A stretch of 64,000 nucleotides of DNA, taken from assembly GCA_004000515.1 (NCBI GenBank), contig CP034537.1, forward strand, positions 4,168,001 to 4,232,000. The letters are read 5' to 3'. Source of the stretch: Pseudomonas poae (GTDB lineage Bacteria > Pseudomonadota > Gammaproteobacteria > Pseudomonadales > Pseudomonadaceae). Position 1 is the stretch's first letter. Each line of letters opens with the position of its first letter. This document shows positions 44,717 through 57,964 of this stretch, in pieces. A model generated the notes under the pieces. It had not been told where the DNA came from, ran no database searches, and saw nothing but the letters and a program-made list of their open reading frames with translations. Position numbers and translations under genes: made by a program.

Positions 44717-45703
44717 TACGCGGCCTCTTCTGTGTGGGGCTGGTCGCCGTTGGTGCTGGTCATGTCGGTAAAGTCAGCATCGACGGTCGCCGCCATGCTC
44801 TTGAGTGCTTCATGGCATTCCAGGCCGATTGCTGCGCGCTGCTTCGGCTTGAGGCCCGCCCAGGCTGCCGCGTAGGCTTCGATGTCCTGGCGCTTGGCAA
44901 CGCTCAGCAGGTCCGCGAATACTCCGTCAATTTCAGGCGAGGGGGATTTTGGCCCGAATGACACGCCGGCAGCGGCTGCGGTGTTCGCTGTCTGTTTGGC
45001 GGGGTGATGTCGATCTCGCCACCGTACGAATCTTCAAATTCGTCGGGGGTGTAAACGCCAAGGATCACGTCAGGGCAGAAGAGGCGCGCCCATTTTTTGG
45101 TAACCAGGTACGCGATTTGCTGCTTGGGGTCTTCTGCCCAGAGCGTAGAGTTGCGGGTGCGGACCTGGGTCAGCAAAAGCTCCAGGGTGCGGGGCTCGTC
45201 TTCACCCCGGAAGGTCGCCCAAACCTTAATGCCGATCCCTTTTTCGTCGTCAAAGCTCCAGGCCGGAACGCGGTACTTTTTAAACTCGCCAGTGTCCTCG
45301 TCCTTTTTGGTCTTGCTGGTGACTTCACGCATCTTCCCGATGACGTTTCCCCAGGGGCCAAACCATTCGAAGTTCAATCGACTTGTGACTGGCGCCTTGG
45401 CGATGATCACTGCGTTAACGAGCTGCGCCTCATAGCTCAATGCGCCGCCGTTGACGATGAACGTCTTCTGCGCCACGGCGAATGGGTTCATTTGCCACTG
45501 CATTGCTTGAAGCACCACCGCCATGCAGTCGGCTTGGTTGCCTTTGAGATGCTTAGGGACTGTGGTTACGCCCTGCGACATCATCAGGGCAGGTCGCTCA
45601 TCGACCGCATAGTGCCTGGGTCGAGGATTAGCGCGGCCGCATTGTGCGATGGGTCGTGATAGGTCGAGAGACCGGTTTGTGCTTGGGGGGTTGTATCGGT
45701 CAT
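44716..45703 (-). CDS. recT: RecT-family single-strand annealing protein, two frameshifts
   Basis: Starts MTDTTPQAQTGLSTYHDPSH at 45703; the core has ALMMSQGVTTVPKHLKGNQADCMAVVLQAMQW and QQIAYLVTKKWARLFCPDVILGVYTPDEF, as in RecT. One base is missing near 45590 (SDLALMMSQG) and one at 44995-44997 (TPPKQTANTAAAAGVSFG), after which the protein ends DQPHTEEAA. 329 aa. Forms an exonuclease-annealase pair with the next gene. Confidence 0.87.
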
Positions 45704-45756
45704 AACGCTCTCCGTAGCCAGCATGGGATGTGCTGTCCATCAGATGGAAAGGGTGG

Positions 45757-50873: not shown

Positions 50874-51095
50874 ATGAGAGAGGCGCAGCGAAGATTGGCC
50901 ATGACAGCCTGGCGCGACCTATTTGCAGTGGCTGACAATAAAATGGACGCAGAGGATAAGTACTTTGGGTTGTTGAGACGGGCTGACGCAATGGAGCTTG
51001 CCGAACTCATTACGAGCGACGAATGGGTTCTGCTTGTAAAGGAGGCGGGAACATTGCTTGCCAGCACCGCCGAGTGCATGGGCGGGAAAGGGTAG
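50874..51095 (+). CDS. Small hypothetical protein
   Basis: 73 aa; REAQRRLAMTAWRDLFAVADNKMDAEDKYFGLLRRADAMELAELI, helical. ATG at 50874 or 50901. A strong terminator follows the stop, which supports a real gene on this strand. Confidence 0.55.
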   Translation: MREAQRRLAMTAWRDLFAVADNKMDAEDKYFGLLRRADAMELAELITSDEWVLLVKEAGTLLASTAECMGGKG

Positions 51096-51109
51096 GGGAA
51101 GATGCAAGT

Positions 51110-51133
51110 AGCCCGGCTCTGGGCCGGGCTTTT
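51110..51133 (+). terminator. Terminator after the small plus-strand gene
   Basis: AGCCCGGC-TCTGG-GCCGGGCT followed by TTTG. Confidence 0.8.
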
Positions 51134-51137
51134 GATT

Positions 51138-51266
51138 AGAGCAGGTCCCGCCCTTATGGTGCGATCCTGTTCCACCTGTTGGGTGAGTGCCTTTTGGGCA
51201 CGCCGAGGCGGAAAAGGAAGCAATCGAAAGCAGAGCCACCAGGCCAATTACAGCAAATTTCTTCAT
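51138..51266 (-). CDS. Small secreted cysteine-containing protein, end uncertain
   Basis: Signal peptide MKKFAVIGLVALLSIASFSASA, then CPKGTHPTGGTGSHHKGGTCS. The frame runs on through the terminator of the opposite gene, so a one-base error near 51,138 probably hides a stop right after this (about 43 aa). Function unknown. Confidence 0.5.
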
Positions 51267-51346
51267 AAAGCCTCCATGCACTGCGGAATGCAGTATCAGG
51301 GCATCGGCGTGCCGAGATATTGCTTGAGTGAAGAAATCCGGTGAAT

Positions 51347-51673
51347 TCAGAAGGACGATGCAATCGCCTGGGCCAGTTGCATGTCGCTCATCAAAGGCGA
51401 GCTGTAGGTCGCTCTGTAGTACCTGGAAGCCTGCTCAAACTCAGCGCCGCGAATCTCGCCATCTGAACCAACGAAAGCCAGGGCGTCGGTCTTGGCTGAC
51501 TTGAAAATCTCAGGCGGCTCGGTCGTGAGAGACGTGGTAGCCCCAATTAAAAGGGTCGGCGCGCAAATTGTGAGAAATATCGCGGCGGCAATAGGGTTGG
51601 CCCCATCACCTGATACAGCCTGAGTACTGACTGACAACAGTAGGGCGGCCGCCATGGTCTTCCATGAGTCCAT
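51347..51673 (-). CDS. DUF2388 protein
   Basis: 108 aa from ATG 51673; signal peptide MDSWKTMAAALLLSVSTQAVS, then TTSLTTEPPEIFKSAKTDALAFVGSDGEIRGAEFEQASRYYR...SDMQLAQAI, the DUF2388 pattern common in Pseudomonas. Predicted periplasmic. Rare as prophage cargo. Confidence 0.78.
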   Translation of the reverse strand: MDSWKTMAAALLLSVSTQAVSGDGANPIAAAIFLTICAPTLLIGATTSLTTEPPEIFKSAKTDALAFVGSDGEIRGAEFEQASRYYRATYSSPLMSDMQLAQAIASSF

Positions 51674-51739
51674 TCTTCGTTGCTTCCATTGCGTCCAGGG
51701 AGCGCCACAATAGCAGAGCAGGGCGCTTGCCAGAAACAA

Positions 51740-51762
51740 GCCCGGCGCTGGGCCGGGCTTAA
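51740..51762 (-). terminator. Terminator of the repressor operon
   Basis: AAGCCCGGC-GCTGG-GCCGGGCTT; on the minus strand a TTGTTTC tract follows. Placed just after the stop of the gene at 51766. Confidence 0.7.
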
Positions 51763-51765
51763 GTG

Positions 51766-52738
51766 CTATACGGTTATTCGATGCTGCTCGGACATTTCTT
51801 TAACTAGCTTTAAGTCGTGAGCGAACATTAGCCGAGGCCGTCCTGCCGCATCACATTCATAATCACCAGAGACGGCGATAACGCTACCCAGTATTTTTTG
51901 ACCTATCTCACTGGTTACGGTCGGAAGCACGCAGCGGAGAGTGCCCACGCCGGAGATATTTCGCAGATGAAATCTTCCAGAATCAAGATCAACCTCTCGA
52001 ACCTCGCCGACAAACTCTCCAAACCTCTTCTTGAGGGTCACAGGTTTCCGAAGAGCATCTCGAAGCACCACCCGCTCGCGATTTCCTAGCTCGCTCTGAC
52101 CGGCATCAGGAGAGGAAATGTCGAGCGTATGAATCCCGACCTTACCAGTTGGAGAGAGCCTGAAAAGTGCCTCCAGGCTCGCGTCGCGCATCGCAGGATC
52201 AGGTATCAGCTCGGCAATCCCAAGATTTAGCGACTCATCGTCAATAAATTCTGGGATGGTCGGAAGCTGTCGGATTGCGAACTTGATGGCCTCGTGCACA
52301 GATTCCGGCTCATCGCTATCCATGATCGAATCCATGGGGGCGATGGAAAATCCTGCATAGATACTGCCAGGCGCAAAACCTGAAAAGCGCAGGTCGAGGT
52401 TTTTGGCCAGCCTTTTGGCGTCTAGGTCGGTTAGGTTGAAAATGGCCTTGGCGAGCATTCGCAACTGTTTTCCGCAGAAACACACAGCCAGTTGAAAGCT
52501 CTTAGACCAGGCTCCCCAGCAGTAGTGGACGGCCCTTCAGCGTGGAATACTAAGTCCGAGGTATCCATGATCTTGGCGAGCGGCATCTCCTCCAAATACA
52601 TCTCCTCAAGTTTGAGGCGATAGAGGTCAATCATGCCGGAAAGGTCGATGCCGGTACCGGCTTCAGCAGCTTTAGCGGCCGCAATCTGACCTTGAAAAGC
52701 TGACGCCCTTTGTGAACTTGTTCTACCCAGGTCACCAT
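51766..52738 (-). CDS. Partner of the DUF6932-like nucleotidyltransferase, two frameshifts
   Basis: 324 aa when repaired: MVTWVEQVHKGRQLFQGQIAAAKAAEAGTGIDL..., with one base missing at 52695-52698 and one at 52468-52471 (VSAEKQLRMLAKAIFNLTD). N-terminal helical half, C-terminal beta-rich part (GEFVGEVREVDLDSGRFHLRNISGVGTLRC). No named domain seen. Its ATG overlaps the end of the nucleotidyltransferase gene by seven bases (ATGGTGA), so they are made together; last gene of the repressor operon. Confidence 0.72.
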
Positions 52739-53199
52739 GGTGAAACCTCAATTATCCCGCGCCGGTCCTTTTCGTTTAAGCCCTTCTTCTTTCCCGCAGC
52801 CTTTGGCCCAACGTACTGAAAGAAATTATAGAAGTCGTTGTGCCCAGCCAGGTCCAGAGTCACATAAAAATCCATTCCATATGTAGACTTAATGCGAGCG
52901 TTTTCTGCTGGAGAGCCGATGCGCAAAAGATCAGCGCGCGCCGCAAGCTCCGCATTCGGAATCAGTATTGATGATTCTATGTCGCCTGGCGTTACCTTAT
53001 CAGAGATAAAGCTGCCTGCGACGATAAGCGACAGACCGCTACCGACCGGCCTTAATTCGGCTTCTATGAAACGGTGAAACTCCCTCATGAGGTTTCGACG
53101 GTGACCGCTGACGCAGAACACCGCTCTAACCTCTTCCCAGGAGGCCCTATGGCAACCCTCAGGCAGAAAACCGCGCTTATCAAGATCTGGTAAAGGCAA
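52732..53199 (-). CDS. DUF6932-like minimal nucleotidyltransferase
   Basis: 155 aa from the TTG at 53199 (AAGGGG upstream). LPEGCHRASWEEVRAVFCVSGHRRNLMREF, then LIVAGSFISDKVTPGDIESS: GS followed by D-x-E is the nucleotidyltransferase active-site pattern, intact here. Ends FYNFFQYVGPKAAGKKKGL...RRGIIEVSPW, as in DUF6932 proteins. It lies downstream of cI, so it should be expressed in the lysogen. Toxin-antitoxin-like or anti-phage function is inferred. Confidence 0.78.
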   Translation of the reverse strand: MPLPDLDKRGFLPEGCHRASWEEVRAVFCVSGHRRNLMREFHRFIEAELRPVGSGLSLIVAGSFISDKVTPGDIESSILIPNAELAARADLLRIGSPAENARIKSTYGMDFYVTLDLAGHNDFYNFFQYVGPKAAGKKKGLNEKDRRGIIEVSPW

Positions 53200-53247
53200 A
53201 GCACATCCCCTTGCTCTAATTTTCTTCCGTGCGTGCGTATAGCGCAC

Positions 53248-53487
53248 CTACTCGGGCTTGCTTCTACTTATCTGCCCTGCCTTCACCTCATCCGCATAAC
53301 CCGCCAGCTTGTCCTCCGTCGACTGGTAGCTCAGCGCGATCATCATCAGTTCGTCCGCGCTAATTTCATCACCAGCAGCGAGAAGCCGCTTAGCGACTCC
53401 GAACAAATCGACGCCTGACCACTTGAGCAGGGCAGCAGCCTCTTTCAGATCGCGGCGCAGTTGCTGGTTGGGTTTAGTGAGTGCCAT
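53248..53487 (-). CDS. Small helical protein in the repressor operon
   Basis: 79 aa, MALTKPNQQLRRDLKEAAALLKWSGVDLFGVAKRLLAAGDEISADELMMIALSYQ. Starts four bases after the cI stop. No family recognised. Confidence 0.62.
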   Translation of the reverse strand: MALTKPNQQLRRDLKEAAALLKWSGVDLFGVAKRLLAAGDEISADELMMIALSYQSTEDKLAGYADEVKAGQISRSKPE

Positions 53488-53491
53488 GGCT

Positions 53492-54326
53492 TCACACCGG
53501 TTGCCCGTTCCACACGTAAAGCACCCGAGCCAGGATATGGGTGTCGTCCACCCTGATGTCCTCTGGGTCGTGGTGCTTGTTGTCCGAAATCATCTTGAAG
53601 CGATCCTTTCCTTTCTTTTGCAGGCGTTTCACGTACAGCATCTCGTCATGGGAGAAGAGGTAGATGCCATCACCCGTGAACTCCCGGATCGTGATGTCGA
53701 CCAGTAGCGGGTCGCGATCCTTGATCGTCGGGGCCATTGACTGCCCCCACCCAGTGATCATCTTCAGGTGAAAGTGTTCTTTGAAGGTAAGGCCCAGGTC
53801 GCGCAGGTGCTTGGGGCTGACGCGTATGTCCTGGAGCATTTCCGGATATTCGTGGGGGATCTGTCCGCCGCCCATCGCTGCGCGCACGTCGTAGTGAGCA
53901 ATCCACACCTCGTCGCCTACCTGGCCAGGGCGAGAGAAGTCGACGGTTATGACGTTGCTCGACTCGTCAGCGGCCGCAATGATTCTGTCACGAGCCGTGC
54001 TCGTTAAACCTTGACCTTCGAAAGCATCCGCTTTATCTGGTCCGCCGCTGTCTGTGCGGATGTCTCGCCTGCGTGATCGCTCGAAGTCAGTTCTTCAGCT
54101 GGAGTTATCGACTCACCTGGCGATATGGAGTCAAACCAACCTCTGGGCAGCCCCTCAATCGCCTCGATTCTCCGCGCTACATCGTCTCCCAAATTCTTCG
54201 CTGTCTTGTCCGACAAAATCTGGCTCAGGTGCGCAGGCGCCATTCCCCAGCGCTCGGCGCACGCGCCTTTCGCTGGTTTCCTATGAGGCTGATCAGTTGC
54301 TGTTTACGAATCGCATAAATATCCAT
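53492..54326 (-). CDS. cI: CI-like prophage repressor (HTH plus S24 peptidase), two frameshifts
   Basis: 278 aa when repaired. N-terminal HTH (GACAERWGMAPAHLSQILSDKTAKNLGDDVARRIE), linker with an Ala-Gly in SSDHAGETS that could be the self-cleavage site, and S24 domain with catalytic Ser in GQSMAPTIKDRDPLLV and Lys in LYVKRLQ. One base is missing in each of the runs 54268-54270 and 54006-54008. Inactivated by RecA-stimulated self-cleavage in this family. Divergent from cro across OR. Confidence 0.9.
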
Positions 54327-54343
54327 GCGGGCAAGAATGCCAG

Positions 54344-54371
54344 CGTTTAGCTCAATGCTAAATGTGCTCAA
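54344..54371 (-). promoter_or_regulatory. Repressor-maintenance promoter PRM
   Basis: Minus strand TTGAGC (54371-54366), 16-base spacer, TAAACG (54349-54344). Start would fall only about 10 bases before the cI ATG, so the mRNA leader is very short, as for lambda cI from PRM. Confidence 0.55.
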
Positions 54372-54413
54372 AGCTAAATATTCCTTGCTACGATATTAGC
54401 CATAAGCTAAATT
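54346..54413 (+). promoter_or_regulatory. Right operator OR and promoter PR
   Basis: Operators TTTAGC-TCAAT-GCTAAA (54346-54362), ATGTGC-TCAAA-GCTAAA (54362-54378), ATTAGC-CATAA-GCTAAA (54395-54411). PR: TTGCTA (54385-54390), 17-base spacer, TAAATT (54108+300: 54408-54413), the same -10 as the left promoter and inside the third operator. Confidence 0.78.
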
Positions 54414-54438
54414 TCTCCCATGTTTAAGGAGAGATCCC

Positions 54439-54675
54439 ATGAATGACCATCTGCGTGACTGGCTCGCCAGCGCTTCAAACGAACGGCGCCAGTCAGTGGC
54501 TGCCGCTGCCAAGACGACGGTAGGGCACCTGTGGCAGCTGGCAGGCGGTCACCGAAAAGCCTCGGCCGACCTGGCAGAGCGCCTTCAGGACGCATCAGGT
54601 GGAGAGATCACCATCGCAGGTTTGCGACCGGATCTTCTCGACCTGGCGCACAAAGTCCTACGCGGCGCCGCCTGA
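54439..54675 (+). CDS. cro: Cro-like regulator
   Basis: 78 aa. HTH region RRQSVAAAAKTTVGHLWQLAGGHRKASADLAERLQDASGG resembles YdaS/Cro-type phage regulators, and LRPDLLDLAHKVLRG is the usual tail. RBS AAGGAGAG before the ATG. First gene from PR, divergent from cI. Confidence 0.83.
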   Translation: MNDHLRDWLASASNERRQSVAAAAKTTVGHLWQLAGGHRKASADLAERLQDASGGEITIAGLRPDLLDLAHKVLRGAA

Positions 54676-54725
54676 CATCCCTGTCCGCCGTTCCATTGAA
54701 GCCAGATTAGAAGAGAGCAGTCCCC

Positions 54726-55340
54726 ATGCAAACGTCCAGTTCCAGACACACCGTACAAACCCGTGATCAGGTGCTGGTTGCCCACGCTGCAAACCAGATC
54801 GCTCGTACCAGCCTGAGCCAAGACGACTTCGCCCAGGCGCTGAGTCGCGAGCTCCATCTGGCGTGCCCGGAGAAGGCCATCGCCAAAGAGGTGCCGGACT
54901 TCGCAGCGCTGACCTTACAGAACGACGTGTCCGACTTTGTGAAGGCGACCGGCCGCTGGCTCAAGCGTGTTCAGCGCTGGCTGTCCGGCGATCAGGAAAT
55001 GCCTTCCTGGCTGGAGGAATCGTGGGTCAACGCCCTTGAACCTGAATTCCGCGACCACTGCGTGAACGAACTGGCGAGCCGCCACGGGCTGACCGGCGCC
55101 CGCCAGATGACCAGCGACCAATGCGCCAACAAAAGTTTCGGCGCACTGATCCGCGCCCTGGGCGATGTGATCGACACCGGCAGCGAAGTGTTTGACGACC
55201 AGGTGATGTGCGAACTGGATCTGCCGCATTTGCCAGCGTTCGCCAGGCAATGCCGTCAGGTTGAAGCGAAGGCAGGGGAGTTGCGCCGTAAGGCTGAGGC
55301 ACTGATCAACGGCAAGCCTGCACTGAAATCAATCGCCTGA
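54726..55340 (+). CDS. Phage early protein in the CII position
   Basis: 204 aa, MQTSSSRHTVQTRDQVLVAHAANQIARTSLSQDDFAQALSREL. Mostly helical; no DNA-binding motif I can name. Position after cro suggests regulation or toxin function (YdaT-like genes sit here in some phages), unproven. A terminator follows. Confidence 0.68.
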   Translation: MQTSSSRHTVQTRDQVLVAHAANQIARTSLSQDDFAQALSRELHLACPEKAIAKEVPDFAALTLQNDVSDFVKATGRWLKRVQRWLSGDQEMPSWLEESWVNALEPEFRDHCVNELASRHGLTGARQMTSDQCANKSFGALIRALGDVIDTGSEVFDDQVMCELDLPHLPAFARQCRQVEAKAGELRRKAEALINGKPALKSIA

Positions 55341-55409: not shown

Positions 55410-56213
55410 ATGCACCAACACACAGAATCGATCAATAGCCCCAACAATCTCGCGCCACGTTTTGTGCAATCGCAAAACGTGGCGCGGACAATGTCGTCAC
55501 GCGAGATCGCTAGCGTAACCGGCAAGCGACACGATAACGTGCTGCGTGACATCGCAGCCATGCTCAAGGACTTGAAAGTCGATCTCCTCAGATTTGAGGA
55601 CATTTACCTAGACGGTCGTAATCGTGAGCAAGTGCAGTATCTTCTTGATCGCGAGCATACCGACTGCCTACTGACAGGCTACAGCGCTCCGATGCGCATG
55701 AAGGTCATTCGACGCTGGCACGAACTGGAAGGGCAGGCCGCAGCGCGTCAAGCGGTGATCGCCAACGGCACGAAGGTCGTCGGCGAGCTCGCAATCCTGG
55801 AATGCTTCACACGCCTGCTGAAGCCTGCGCCATCCAGCCAAGTGATGATGCTCGCCCAGATCGCCACCAACAACGGCTTGGATTCCAAATTCCTCCCAGG
55901 CTATGCGGTGGACGCCGCCCCTGACGCCGCTGGTGGTTCTTCGATGCCGACCAAGGCAATCACCGCCCTAATCAAAGATCACGCCATCGCCAGCACTGCC
56001 CGCGCCTTCAACCTCGCGCTCAAGGCTCACGGCTTCCTGACTCTGCTCCAGCGCAAAAACTCCAAGCAGGAAATGGTCGACTTCTGGTCCGTGACCGAGA
56101 AGGGCATGGCCTACGGAAAGAACCTCACCAGCCCTCAATGCCCCCGCGAGACGCAACCTCACTGGTACGTGGATCGCTTCCTTGAATTGGCCGCTAAGGT
56201 CGGGAAGGCCTGA
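55410..56213 (+). CDS. Rha-family phage regulatory protein
   Basis: 267 aa. TMSSREIASVTGKRHDNVLRDIAAM is the Rha domain, followed by DREHTDCLLTGYSAPMRMKVIRRWHELE; the C-terminal part resembles phage antirepressor KilAC-type domains. The N-terminal 27 codons before MSSREIA contain a 14-bp perfect hairpin, and an internal ATG at 55492 could be an alternative start. Confidence 0.85.
   Translation: MHQHTESINSPNNLAPRFVQSQNVARTMSSREIASVTGKRHDNVLRDIAAMLKDLKVDLLRFEDIYLDGRNREQVQYLLDREHTDCLLTGYSAPMRMKVIRRWHELEGQAAARQAVIANGTKVVGELAILECFTRLLKPAPSSQVMMLAQIATNNGLDSKFLPGYAVDAAPDAAGGSSMPTKAITALIKDHAIASTARAFNLALKAHGFLTLLQRKNSKQEMVDFWSVTEKGMAYGKNLTSPQCPRETQPHWYVDRFLELAAKVGKA
55451..55486. repeat. 14-bp perfect inverted repeat within the rha 5' end
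   Basis: CGCGCCACGTTTTG, 8-base loop, CAAAACGTGGCGCG. A shorter relative (GCGCCACG...CGTGGCGC) is at 62551-62584. Confidence 0.8.
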
Positions 56214-56214
56214 C

Positions 56215-57190
56215 ATGCAATACACCGTCACGATTAACCAGGTGAAAGCGCTGGAGTGGGGCTGAATTCTCAGCAAGCCCTGTTGTTCGCCTTTGTCTAC
56301 GGCTGCCCGAGCTGGACCAAGCCAATCAAGACTGATGACGGCATCTTCTTCGCGCTGAGCAAGGCCAAGATCACTGAGGAGCTACCGCTGCTCACCGACA
56401 AGCCAGACACCGCTTACCGCATGCTGAAGGCCCTGGAAGAGGCCGGTTTGATTGAGCTTTCCAGCACTTCGAACATCACGCTTTTTCGCCTTACCGAGAA
56501 GGCCATCGAGTGGAACCAGAAGCTTGATGGGTCGGAAAATATCCGACCCCGCCAAAAAACAAAGGTCGGAAAAATATCCGATCTACCTCGGATAAATCTC
56601 CGAGCAAGGTCGGAAAAAAATCCGAGCAAGGGTCGGAAAAATCTCCGACAAATCAGGATACCAATCATCAGGGTACCAATCAGGGCACCAGTCAGGACTT
56701 GCAGGACGCCACCGGCAAGCCGGCTCAGTCCCGCGGCTTGGTGCTGGTGGTTGATCGCAGCGATGCTCCCCGAGTGGAGATCCCCGCCGATATGCCGGGC
56801 CCCAAAGACCAGGCCTGCAAAACCTTCAAGGTCTGGGCGAACTACGCCATGGCTTACCGCAAACGCTACAGCGCCTGGCCTGTATGGAATGCCAAGGTTG
56901 GCGGCCAGCTTGGCCAGCTGGTCGACCGCCTCGGCGCGGATGTCGCCCACCACGTCGCTGCCCACTTCCTGAAAACCAGCGATGCCGCTGTGCTGCGCAA
57001 GTGCCACAGCCTCAACGAGCTGCTGGCCAACGCCGAGAGCTATCACACCCAGTGGGTGACCGGGCAGCGCATCAACGGCACGACCGCCCGCCAGATGGAA
57101 CGGACAGAAGCGAACCACTCCGCAGCGGAGCAGGCCGCCCAGATGGTTTTGGCCAAACGCCAAGCAGGTGACCGCAATGAATACCTTTGA
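56215..57190 (+). CDS. O-like phage replication initiator, two frameshifts
   Basis: 325 aa when repaired. MQYTVTINQVKALEWGLNSQQALLFAFVYGCPSW, a winged-helix N-terminal domain, then a low-complexity linker encoded by iterons, and a C-terminal helical domain (FKVWANYAMAYRKRYSAWPVWNAK...QLVDRLGADVAHHVAAHFL). One base is missing at 56262 and one in the A run 56614-56620. In lambda the O gene also contains the origin. Overlaps the P-like gene. Confidence 0.78.
56529..56649 (+). repeat. Iteron array, probable phage replication origin
   Basis: Five imperfect palindromes with TCGGA-N5-7-TCCGA. The first is GGGTCGGAAAATATCCGACCC (56529), then units near 56564, 56587, 56608 and 56630. TCGGA starts at 56532, 56566, 56588, 56610 and 56633, i.e. 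22-23 bases apart after the first (about two helical turns). A-rich, in the linker of the initiator gene. Confidence 0.78.
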
Positions 57191-57964
57191 AATGAATGAC
57201 CAGCAGGTTGCCGGGCTGGCCGCCGCCATCTGTGCCACAGCCGAGGCCATGGGCCAGGAAATGAACCCGGGCACTGCCGCGATGATGGCTGAAGACCTCT
57301 GCGCGTATCCGGTGCCCGTCGTCAAAGCCGCGTTGAAGGCCTGCCGCTTCGAGGTGAAGGGCAAGCTGGCCATGGCTGACATCCTGCAACGCGTTCAGTC
57401 CTCCGACGGGCGCCCGGGCAAGGACGAGGCCTGGGCCATCGCCATGACCACCAACGATGAATTCGAAACCGTGGTGCTGACCGACGAGATCCAACTGGCT
57501 CTGGCAGCCGCGAAACCCATCTTGGATGGCGGCGACAAAATCGGTGCGCGCATGGCGTTCATCGACGCCTACCAAAGGTTCGTGGGCCAGGCCCGCGAGG
57601 ATGCGAAACCGGTCAATTGGCACGTGTCCGTGGGTTTCGACTCCAACCGCCGCGTCCAGGCCGTCACCAAGGCGGTGGAGCTGAGGCGCATTCCCAAGAG
57701 CACGGCCAGAAGTACTTGGCTGACCTGAGCATTGTTCCAGTGACCGAGGATGGCCGCGCCATTGCCGGTTTGCTCACCGGTGCCGTCACCCAGCCTGCGC
57801 CAGTTCTGCGCCAGAAGCTGGAACTGGTCAAAAACTCCATGCTGGAAATGCGCAAGGCCAGTGCCGAACGAAAAACCGAAATGCGCATTGAAGCGGCCAA
57901 CGAGTTGGCGGATCGCCGGGCGCTGCTGATCAAGCAGGCCCAGGAATTGGAGGCTCGAGCATGA
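57177..57964 (+). CDS. P-like replication partner, one frameshift
   Basis: 262 aa when repaired. MNTFEMNDQQVAGLAAAICATAEAMGQEMNPGTAAMMAEDLCAYPVPVVKAALKACR, then PVNWHVSVGFDSNRRVQAV, and a charged C-terminal helix. One A is missing at 57696-57697 (RIPKEHGQKYLADLSIV). Position after the initiator suggests a helicase loader or accessory; homology to lambda P is not established. Confidence 0.72.

Follow-up and report, generated by a model that had tools for sequence, protein, structure and literature searches.

What do the two genes behind the repressor of a Pseudomonas poae prophage encode, and what would a lysogen gain from expressing them? The window, which is the whole 64,000-nucleotide stretch that we analysed (GenBank assembly GCA_004000515.1, contig CP034537.1, positions 4,168,001 to 4,232,000), contains on its minus strand a nucleotidyltransferase (NTase) gene, A, followed by an overlapping partner gene, B. 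We conclude that A and B are one conserved unit, which is almost certainly a module of the PDC-M63AB type, a candidate phage-defence system of PADLOC-DB 2.0.0. The best explanation of the locus as a whole, to which we assign a probability of about 0.6, is that this module of a PDC-M63AB branch protects the lysogen. In window positions, the pair comprises the following features.

52732..53199, minus strand: A, a DUF6932 nucleotidyltransferase of 155 amino acids with a TTG start, PDC-M63A-like (Pfam, PADLOC and the AF2 model of a relative).
51766..52738, minus strand: B, the PDC-M63B-like partner gene, 324 amino acids in intact relatives and spread here over three frames (pieces 52431-52751 and 51766-52485).
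52732..52738, minus strand: the 7 bases by which the two genes overlap, with the partner ATG and the NTase TGA lying within ATGGTGA.

The sequence-only reading of this DNA had left co-occurrence of the two genes to a survey. Using the partner alone as bait, we collected 104 loci, many of them near-duplicates, which fall into three subfamilies: F1, the window subfamily (23 loci, comprising L001 in Pseudomonas fluorescens FW300-N2E3 and 22 IMG/VR contigs); F2, which is PDC-M63B (39 IMG/VR loci, many of them near duplicates); and F3 (42 loci). An NTase open reading frame (ORF) was found directly 5' of the partner in 104/104 loci, which indicates that the pair is conserved together. All 23 F1 loci have A first, 22 as a separate ORF and L025 inside a longer ORF; the NTases of L001 and L010 are identical, as are those of L014 and L015. 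Pairing was likewise complete for F2 (39/39), with a 4-base overlap in 38 loci and an alternative partner start in L061, and for F3 (42/42), where 31 loci passed a strict adjacency filter; of the remaining 11, L122 has a partner truncated at the contig end and the others have alternative starts upstream. The NTase profiles first used for the F2 and F3 counts contained relatives of the sequences that they found. A cross-check that used only the NTases of the other subfamilies confirmed 101/104 loci (F1, 20/23; F2, 39/39; F3, 42/42) and missed L001 and L010, whose shared NTase is 43% identical to that of the window, and L027, whose NTase is 30% identical to the relative P0001 (alignment A5).

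The product of A matches DUF6932 (Pfam PF22014) with an E-value of 5.7e-22 and 79.1 bits, where the cut-off is 27. Its relatives begin at the same aligned residue as the TTG start, which supports that start and the coordinate 53199 given for it by the sequence-only reading. The catalytic pattern GS..D-x-E..D is present, and the GS and three acidic residues recur in 25/25 aligned proteins, so the active site described earlier as intact is borne out. An AF2 model of P0001 (pLDDT 92) returned best-ranked PDB matches that are mostly nucleotidyltransferases, and its Foldseek matches include chains of MNT antitoxins, one of them an MNT with its AMPylated HEPN toxin. A PDB sequence search with the NTase profile reached only E 0.3 at best, with some polymerases of the NTase superfamily and other matches that are clearly chance; a search of phages with one NTase gave no match. 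The structure matches to an NTase fold are weak but consistent, and together with the Pfam match they agree with the earlier designation of A as a DUF6932-like nucleotidyltransferase.

DUF6932 also occurs with other partners. It scored above the cut-off in 13 of 299 phylum genomes, the window genome included. Other genomes contributed 13 DUF6932 matches. Eight of these are followed by a gene for an F3 partner, one (L029) by a gene for an F2 partner and three (L030, L034 and L039) by a gene for a protein with helix-turn-helix (HTH_3) and Peptidase_M78 domains; L038 has only a short ORF downstream. Cassettes of DUF6932 with an HTH/M78 protein are also found on Nostoc and Rhizobium plasmids. Because the NTase remains constant while its partners vary, we favour the NTase rather than the partner as the probable effector. 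As separate observations, the HTH_3/Peptidase_M78 cassettes of L046 and L047 have a DUF4186 gene behind them, and on a Klebsiella plasmid (L043:3995-5173) DUF6932 is joined in one protein to a C-terminal region whose matches to alpha/beta-hydrolases are weak.

For the partner, 276 of 999 candidate proteins were homologues at E<=0.001. The notion that it has no known relative was rejected. None of the 120 listed (P0011-P0130) has a Pfam domain. The closest intact relative is 97% identical to the C-terminal piece of the window partner and has the 324 residues that the sequence-only reading had given; that length holds for intact relatives, whereas the window copy is frame-broken in two places. 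Modelling predicts an OB fold for the C-terminal domain. No clear family match emerged. PDB sequence searches gave no match with the window partner profile and two with the M63B profile (one doubtful at E 0.0032, another at E 0.85), and a search of NCBIfam gave none. Nor were there matches for the window pieces in phage records by DNA or protein search, for single proteins in IMG/VR scans, for partner P0087 in plasmids or for partner P0098 in phages, and a genome-contig scan with one protein returned a single locus, L001. In 398 genus genomes the partner profile gave, besides the window genome, a single weak match (G387, E 9.7e-4), and in 398 phylum genomes it gave the window genome only, which indicates that the window subfamily is rare in the sampled genomes. 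Its few named hosts are Pseudomonas species, Azotobacter, Methylospira, Lysobacter, Cupriavidus and an Alcaligenaceae bacterium. In a Foldseek comparison with BFVD, the partner model m446a0d950308 matched A0A8S5QA00, a DUF6575 phage protein, and Q6NE06, a protein of Leptospira phage LE1, over approximately 300 columns.

How is the window pair related to PDC-M63AB? A pair in a Klebsiella prophage matches PDC-M63A at E 2.1e-41 and PDC-M63B at E 4.3e-47. The window A matches PDC-M63A over protein residues 27-157 (E 1.6e-8, judged by E-value and not by PADLOC's own cut-off), and no PDC-M63B model matched the window partner pieces at E up to 1 or the intact relatives P0011 and P0012. Among 5,027 PADLOC models, the one matched by most F1 members was nonetheless a PDC-M63B model, which hit 2/63 weakly (best E 0.0048); the model PDLC04746 had no match in 369 class genomes or in any control genome, and its silence is therefore no sign of absence. 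F1 aligned weakly with PDC-M63B alone (P 0.0012; score 32.6 over 174 columns, with the nearest decoy cluster at 29.8 over 31 columns), and its alignment with F3 alone weakened from P 0.00017 to 0.0025 when F3 was enlarged. F2 and F3 compared at P 0.02 with the first small F3 set and at P 5.8e-11 over 274 columns with the enlarged set, a profile match by which the two are clearly homologous. When the F1 profile (73 rows) was compared with a merged F2 and F3 profile (82 rows), hhalign returned P 8.4e-8 and a probability of 94% over 177 columns, which take in the OB domain and a common motif of the L-x-L-R..GS type. Reversed profiles gave P 0.097 and 0.16, 60 column shuffles reached at most 27.0 against a score of 62.6, and 11 other phage families reached at most 19.6. 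Because the merged-profile score far exceeds these controls, we assign the window pair to the same superfamily, in which it forms a divergent branch; the remote homology of F1 to PDC-M63B is convincing only through the merged profile. The sequence-only reading knew the pair as no described system, which does not stand, since the Klebsiella pair is the PADLOC candidate PDC-M63AB and the window pair its divergent branch. Separately, the PDC-M63B proteins L029:557-1483 and P0131 both have weak matches to PDC-M32A models, and L029 also to PDC-M02B models, mostly in the N-terminal half, which hints that this half may be a domain common to several candidate systems.

Across the 104 loci, a repressor or HTH gene lies 5' of the pair in 73. 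Within F1, 16/23 loci have a same-strand repressor or HTH protein upstream: nine were found by sequence search (among them L001, the query's own locus), six scored above the Pfam cut-off, and L018 fell just below it with both domains. The repressor of L021 lies one gene farther, L024 has a weak match, and no upstream repressor was found in L013, L020, L023, L026 or L028. The corresponding counts are 31/39 for F2 at E<=1e-4 (L068 has no upstream sequence) and 26/42 for F3 within 1.5 kb. The sequence-only reading had likened this place to that of rexAB in lambda, which has the order cI, rexA, rexB, and homologous pairs do occupy that slot in lambdoid phages: mEpX1 has the order cI, A, B, N, and phiR30_1 the order cI, A, B, kil, gam, bet, where B is followed by a small gene on the reverse strand. 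On a plasmid record, a Klebsiella prophage has an S24 repressor followed by A and B, and its B is 77% identical to that of phiR30_1 and 55% to that of mEpX1. RefSeq annotates the matching A genes of E. coli genomes as DUF6932. In 5,426 complete E. coli genomes, versions with at least 99% identity numbered 96 for the phiR30_1 type and 18 for the mEpX1 type.

In the window, the surroundings of the pair are as follows.

53492..54243, minus strand: cI-type repressor, with the S24 part at 53492 to about 54025 and the HTH part at 54004-54243 in different frames (Pfam S24, PHROG repressors and regulators, and tblastn with the L009 repressor).
53248..53487, minus strand: small gene of 79 amino acids between repressor and NTase, phrog_6388 (PHROG E 4.3e-21).
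51737..51761, minus strand: intrinsic-terminator-like hairpin 3' of the partner, from fold prediction.
54439..55340, plus strand: divergent early genes, one at 54439-54675 with a weak PHROG repressor and YdaS match and a CII-like gene at 54726-55340.

Peptidase_S24 scored on 53492-53908 (Pfam E 5.2e-19), where PHROG gives the label 'transcriptional repressor', and homologues of the phrog_6388 gene lie 5' of the NTase in L001, L010, L013, L014 and L015. Because the weak-repressor/YdaS gene and the CII-like gene diverge from the other side, this part of the window is a prophage immunity region. The order read from the sequence, in which a small gene, the NTase and the partner follow cI on one strand, agrees with the Pfam and PHROG matches, and the seven-base overlap is borne out by the shared ATGGTGA. 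The 'strong terminator' described earlier holds in part: the 10-bp stem is fair (centroid -18.6 kcal/mol) and the U-run in the tail TTGTTTCT is modest; 10/200 shuffles of the stretch fold equally well (z -1.93). A single sigma-70-like match was found in 51,000-55,000; since it lies within the NTase gene and is at chance level (shuffle mean 1.9), transcription of the module from the repressor promoter is plausible.

What would such a module do? Given its rexAB-like slot, its expected expression in the lysogen, its spread among prophages with different repressors and its PADLOC listing, a lysogen-expressed exclusion module is the most likely answer, and we lean towards an anti-phage role. A and the overlapping B, as one module behind the repressor, would be made in the lysogen and would protect it against other phages. 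B would sense infection through nucleic-acid binding and hold or aim A, which would transfer a nucleotide to RNA, with tRNA as a first guess, or to protein; growth would then arrest and the infection be aborted. Precedents exist in MNT enzymes that AMPylate a toxin and in NTases of the MenT/AbiEii type, some of which act on tRNA. Because the partner has a predicted OB domain, RNA would be our first-choice target; the RNA-modifying version of the mechanism is tentative. Equally speculative is the generalisation that lambdoid and Pseudomonas prophages carry, in the rexAB slot, a widespread class of lysogen-expressed exclusion systems. In these a small NTase, guided by an OB-fold partner that comes in three diverged subfamilies, would cap or extend RNA such as tRNA in infected cells, and the PDC-M63B models would catch only part of the class. 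One result weighs against protection: in the available part of PMC12409345, the sole experimental test of PDC-M63AB that we found, deletion of the system from E. coli NILS69 was negative, with no change for ten phages. This is a small panel, and the link between the NILS69 pair and that of the window is the name PDC-M63AB only.

Alternatively, the pair could be a type VII-like toxin-antitoxin (TA) system, in which A would be an MNT-type antitoxin that nucleotidylates and silences the toxin B. The adjacent, overlapping genes, the small NTase in the upstream position and the MNT chains among the Foldseek matches of A, including the MNT with its AMPylated toxin, are consistent with this arrangement. 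However, B shows no clear family match and no HEPN R-x4-6-H motif among the columns conserved at 80% or more (alignment A1, 63 members of B), and A is also paired with HTH and M78-peptidase proteins that are more like control proteins than toxins, which makes a TA system unlikely. HEPN identity of the partner was rejected, as the motif is not conserved across those 63 members.

We consider it less likely still that the module serves the phage itself, through lysogeny maintenance, immunity tuning or prophage stability, and has no defence role. Such a role would fit the frequent linkage to repressors and the negative NILS69 deletion in the available part of PMC12409345. Nevertheless, the repressors that accompany the A-B cassette range widely in their similarity to the query repressors, and upstream of some copies none was detected; in addition, plasmids carry DUF6932 cassettes in which the partner is a different one.

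The pair could also be a decaying, functionless remnant in this genome. The partner spans three frames, with breaks near 52,712 and 52,480, the repressor spans two, and, by comparison with intact homologues in L001, L007, L010 and L013, a gene of the integrase region (44719-45724) is also broken into two or three frames, as are replication genes (56182-57955). However, host genes of the same assembly are also broken. Large class I tRNA synthetases usually have approximately 870-950 residues in a single frame, and their genes are essential. A search of the same genome for this family found one match in a 956-residue open frame, a second gene that stays open for only 634 residues, a third divided between frames of 607 and 336 residues, and two short matches in other frames; split or shortened synthetase genes lie at 2235219-2237154 and 551189-552973 of contig G000:C1. 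Because essential genes of the same assembly are broken, the frame breaks in the window are probably assembly errors. Furthermore, differences between window pieces and relatives peak at codon position 3 in 18/18 comparisons (for example, 0.24/0.08/0.65 for the C-terminal partner piece against L007), a codon-position pattern that in both genes is that of constrained genes. Decay is therefore improbable.

Membership of the RexAB family, which would fit the position of lambda rexAB and, in the available part of PMC12894663, of RexABpp in P. putida prophage P1, can be rejected as highly improbable, since A is an NTase, B had no RexA profile match (with the one lambda RexA sequence, hhalign returned P 0.23 over 17 columns), and relatives of A and B lack a RexB-like hydrophobic segment (the best 19-residue Kyte-Doolittle mean is 2.39 in RexB but 1.12 in P0001 and 1.28 in P0012).

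Taken together, these findings favour the exclusion module and indicate that one cassette of an enzyme and a partner recurs in lambda's exclusion-gene slot, with strongly diverged partners and in prophages with different repressors. Should it prove to be a defence system, the E. coli genome counts suggest that it is widespread and has been overlooked. Current PADLOC models miss branches of PDC-M63. In the literature searched, which left bioRxiv preprints outside its scope, we found no mention of DUF6932 and no description of the DUF6932-partner pair, whereas the name PDC-M63 occurs in one paper. The kind itself is already known as a computational candidate with function unproven; within that scope, what is new here is the recognition of branches F1 and F3, the connection of both to PDC-M63B at profile level, and the count of paired loci.

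Among known systems, lambda RexAB and RexABpp are, like the window pair, two genes behind a repressor. In RexABpp, which lies two genes beyond the CI-like repressor of a P. putida prophage, exclusion has been demonstrated (PMC12894663); only its position is common to it and the window pair. The window has instead an NTase and a predicted OB-fold protein, with no sequence relation found to either Rex system and no membrane segment. Type VII MNT-HEPN systems also join a small NTase to an adjacent partner, and their MNT chains are among the fold matches of A, but the window partner shows no HEPN motif. The HTH/Peptidase_M78 cassettes (L030, L034, L039, L046 and L047) have a homologous NTase with its partner directly 3', as in the window, yet that partner is an HTH/peptidase protein of approximately 480-510 residues rather than an OB-fold protein. 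PDC-M63AB differs in that its B models fail on the window B and in that the relatives of PDC-M63B are mostly from Enterobacterales, as opposed to Pseudomonas and others for the window subfamily. It nevertheless shares with the window pair a DUF6932 NTase as A, a position of A 5' of B with a short overlap and a place behind cI in lambdoid prophages, and its B, of approximately 310 residues, can be aligned to the window partner through the OB region.
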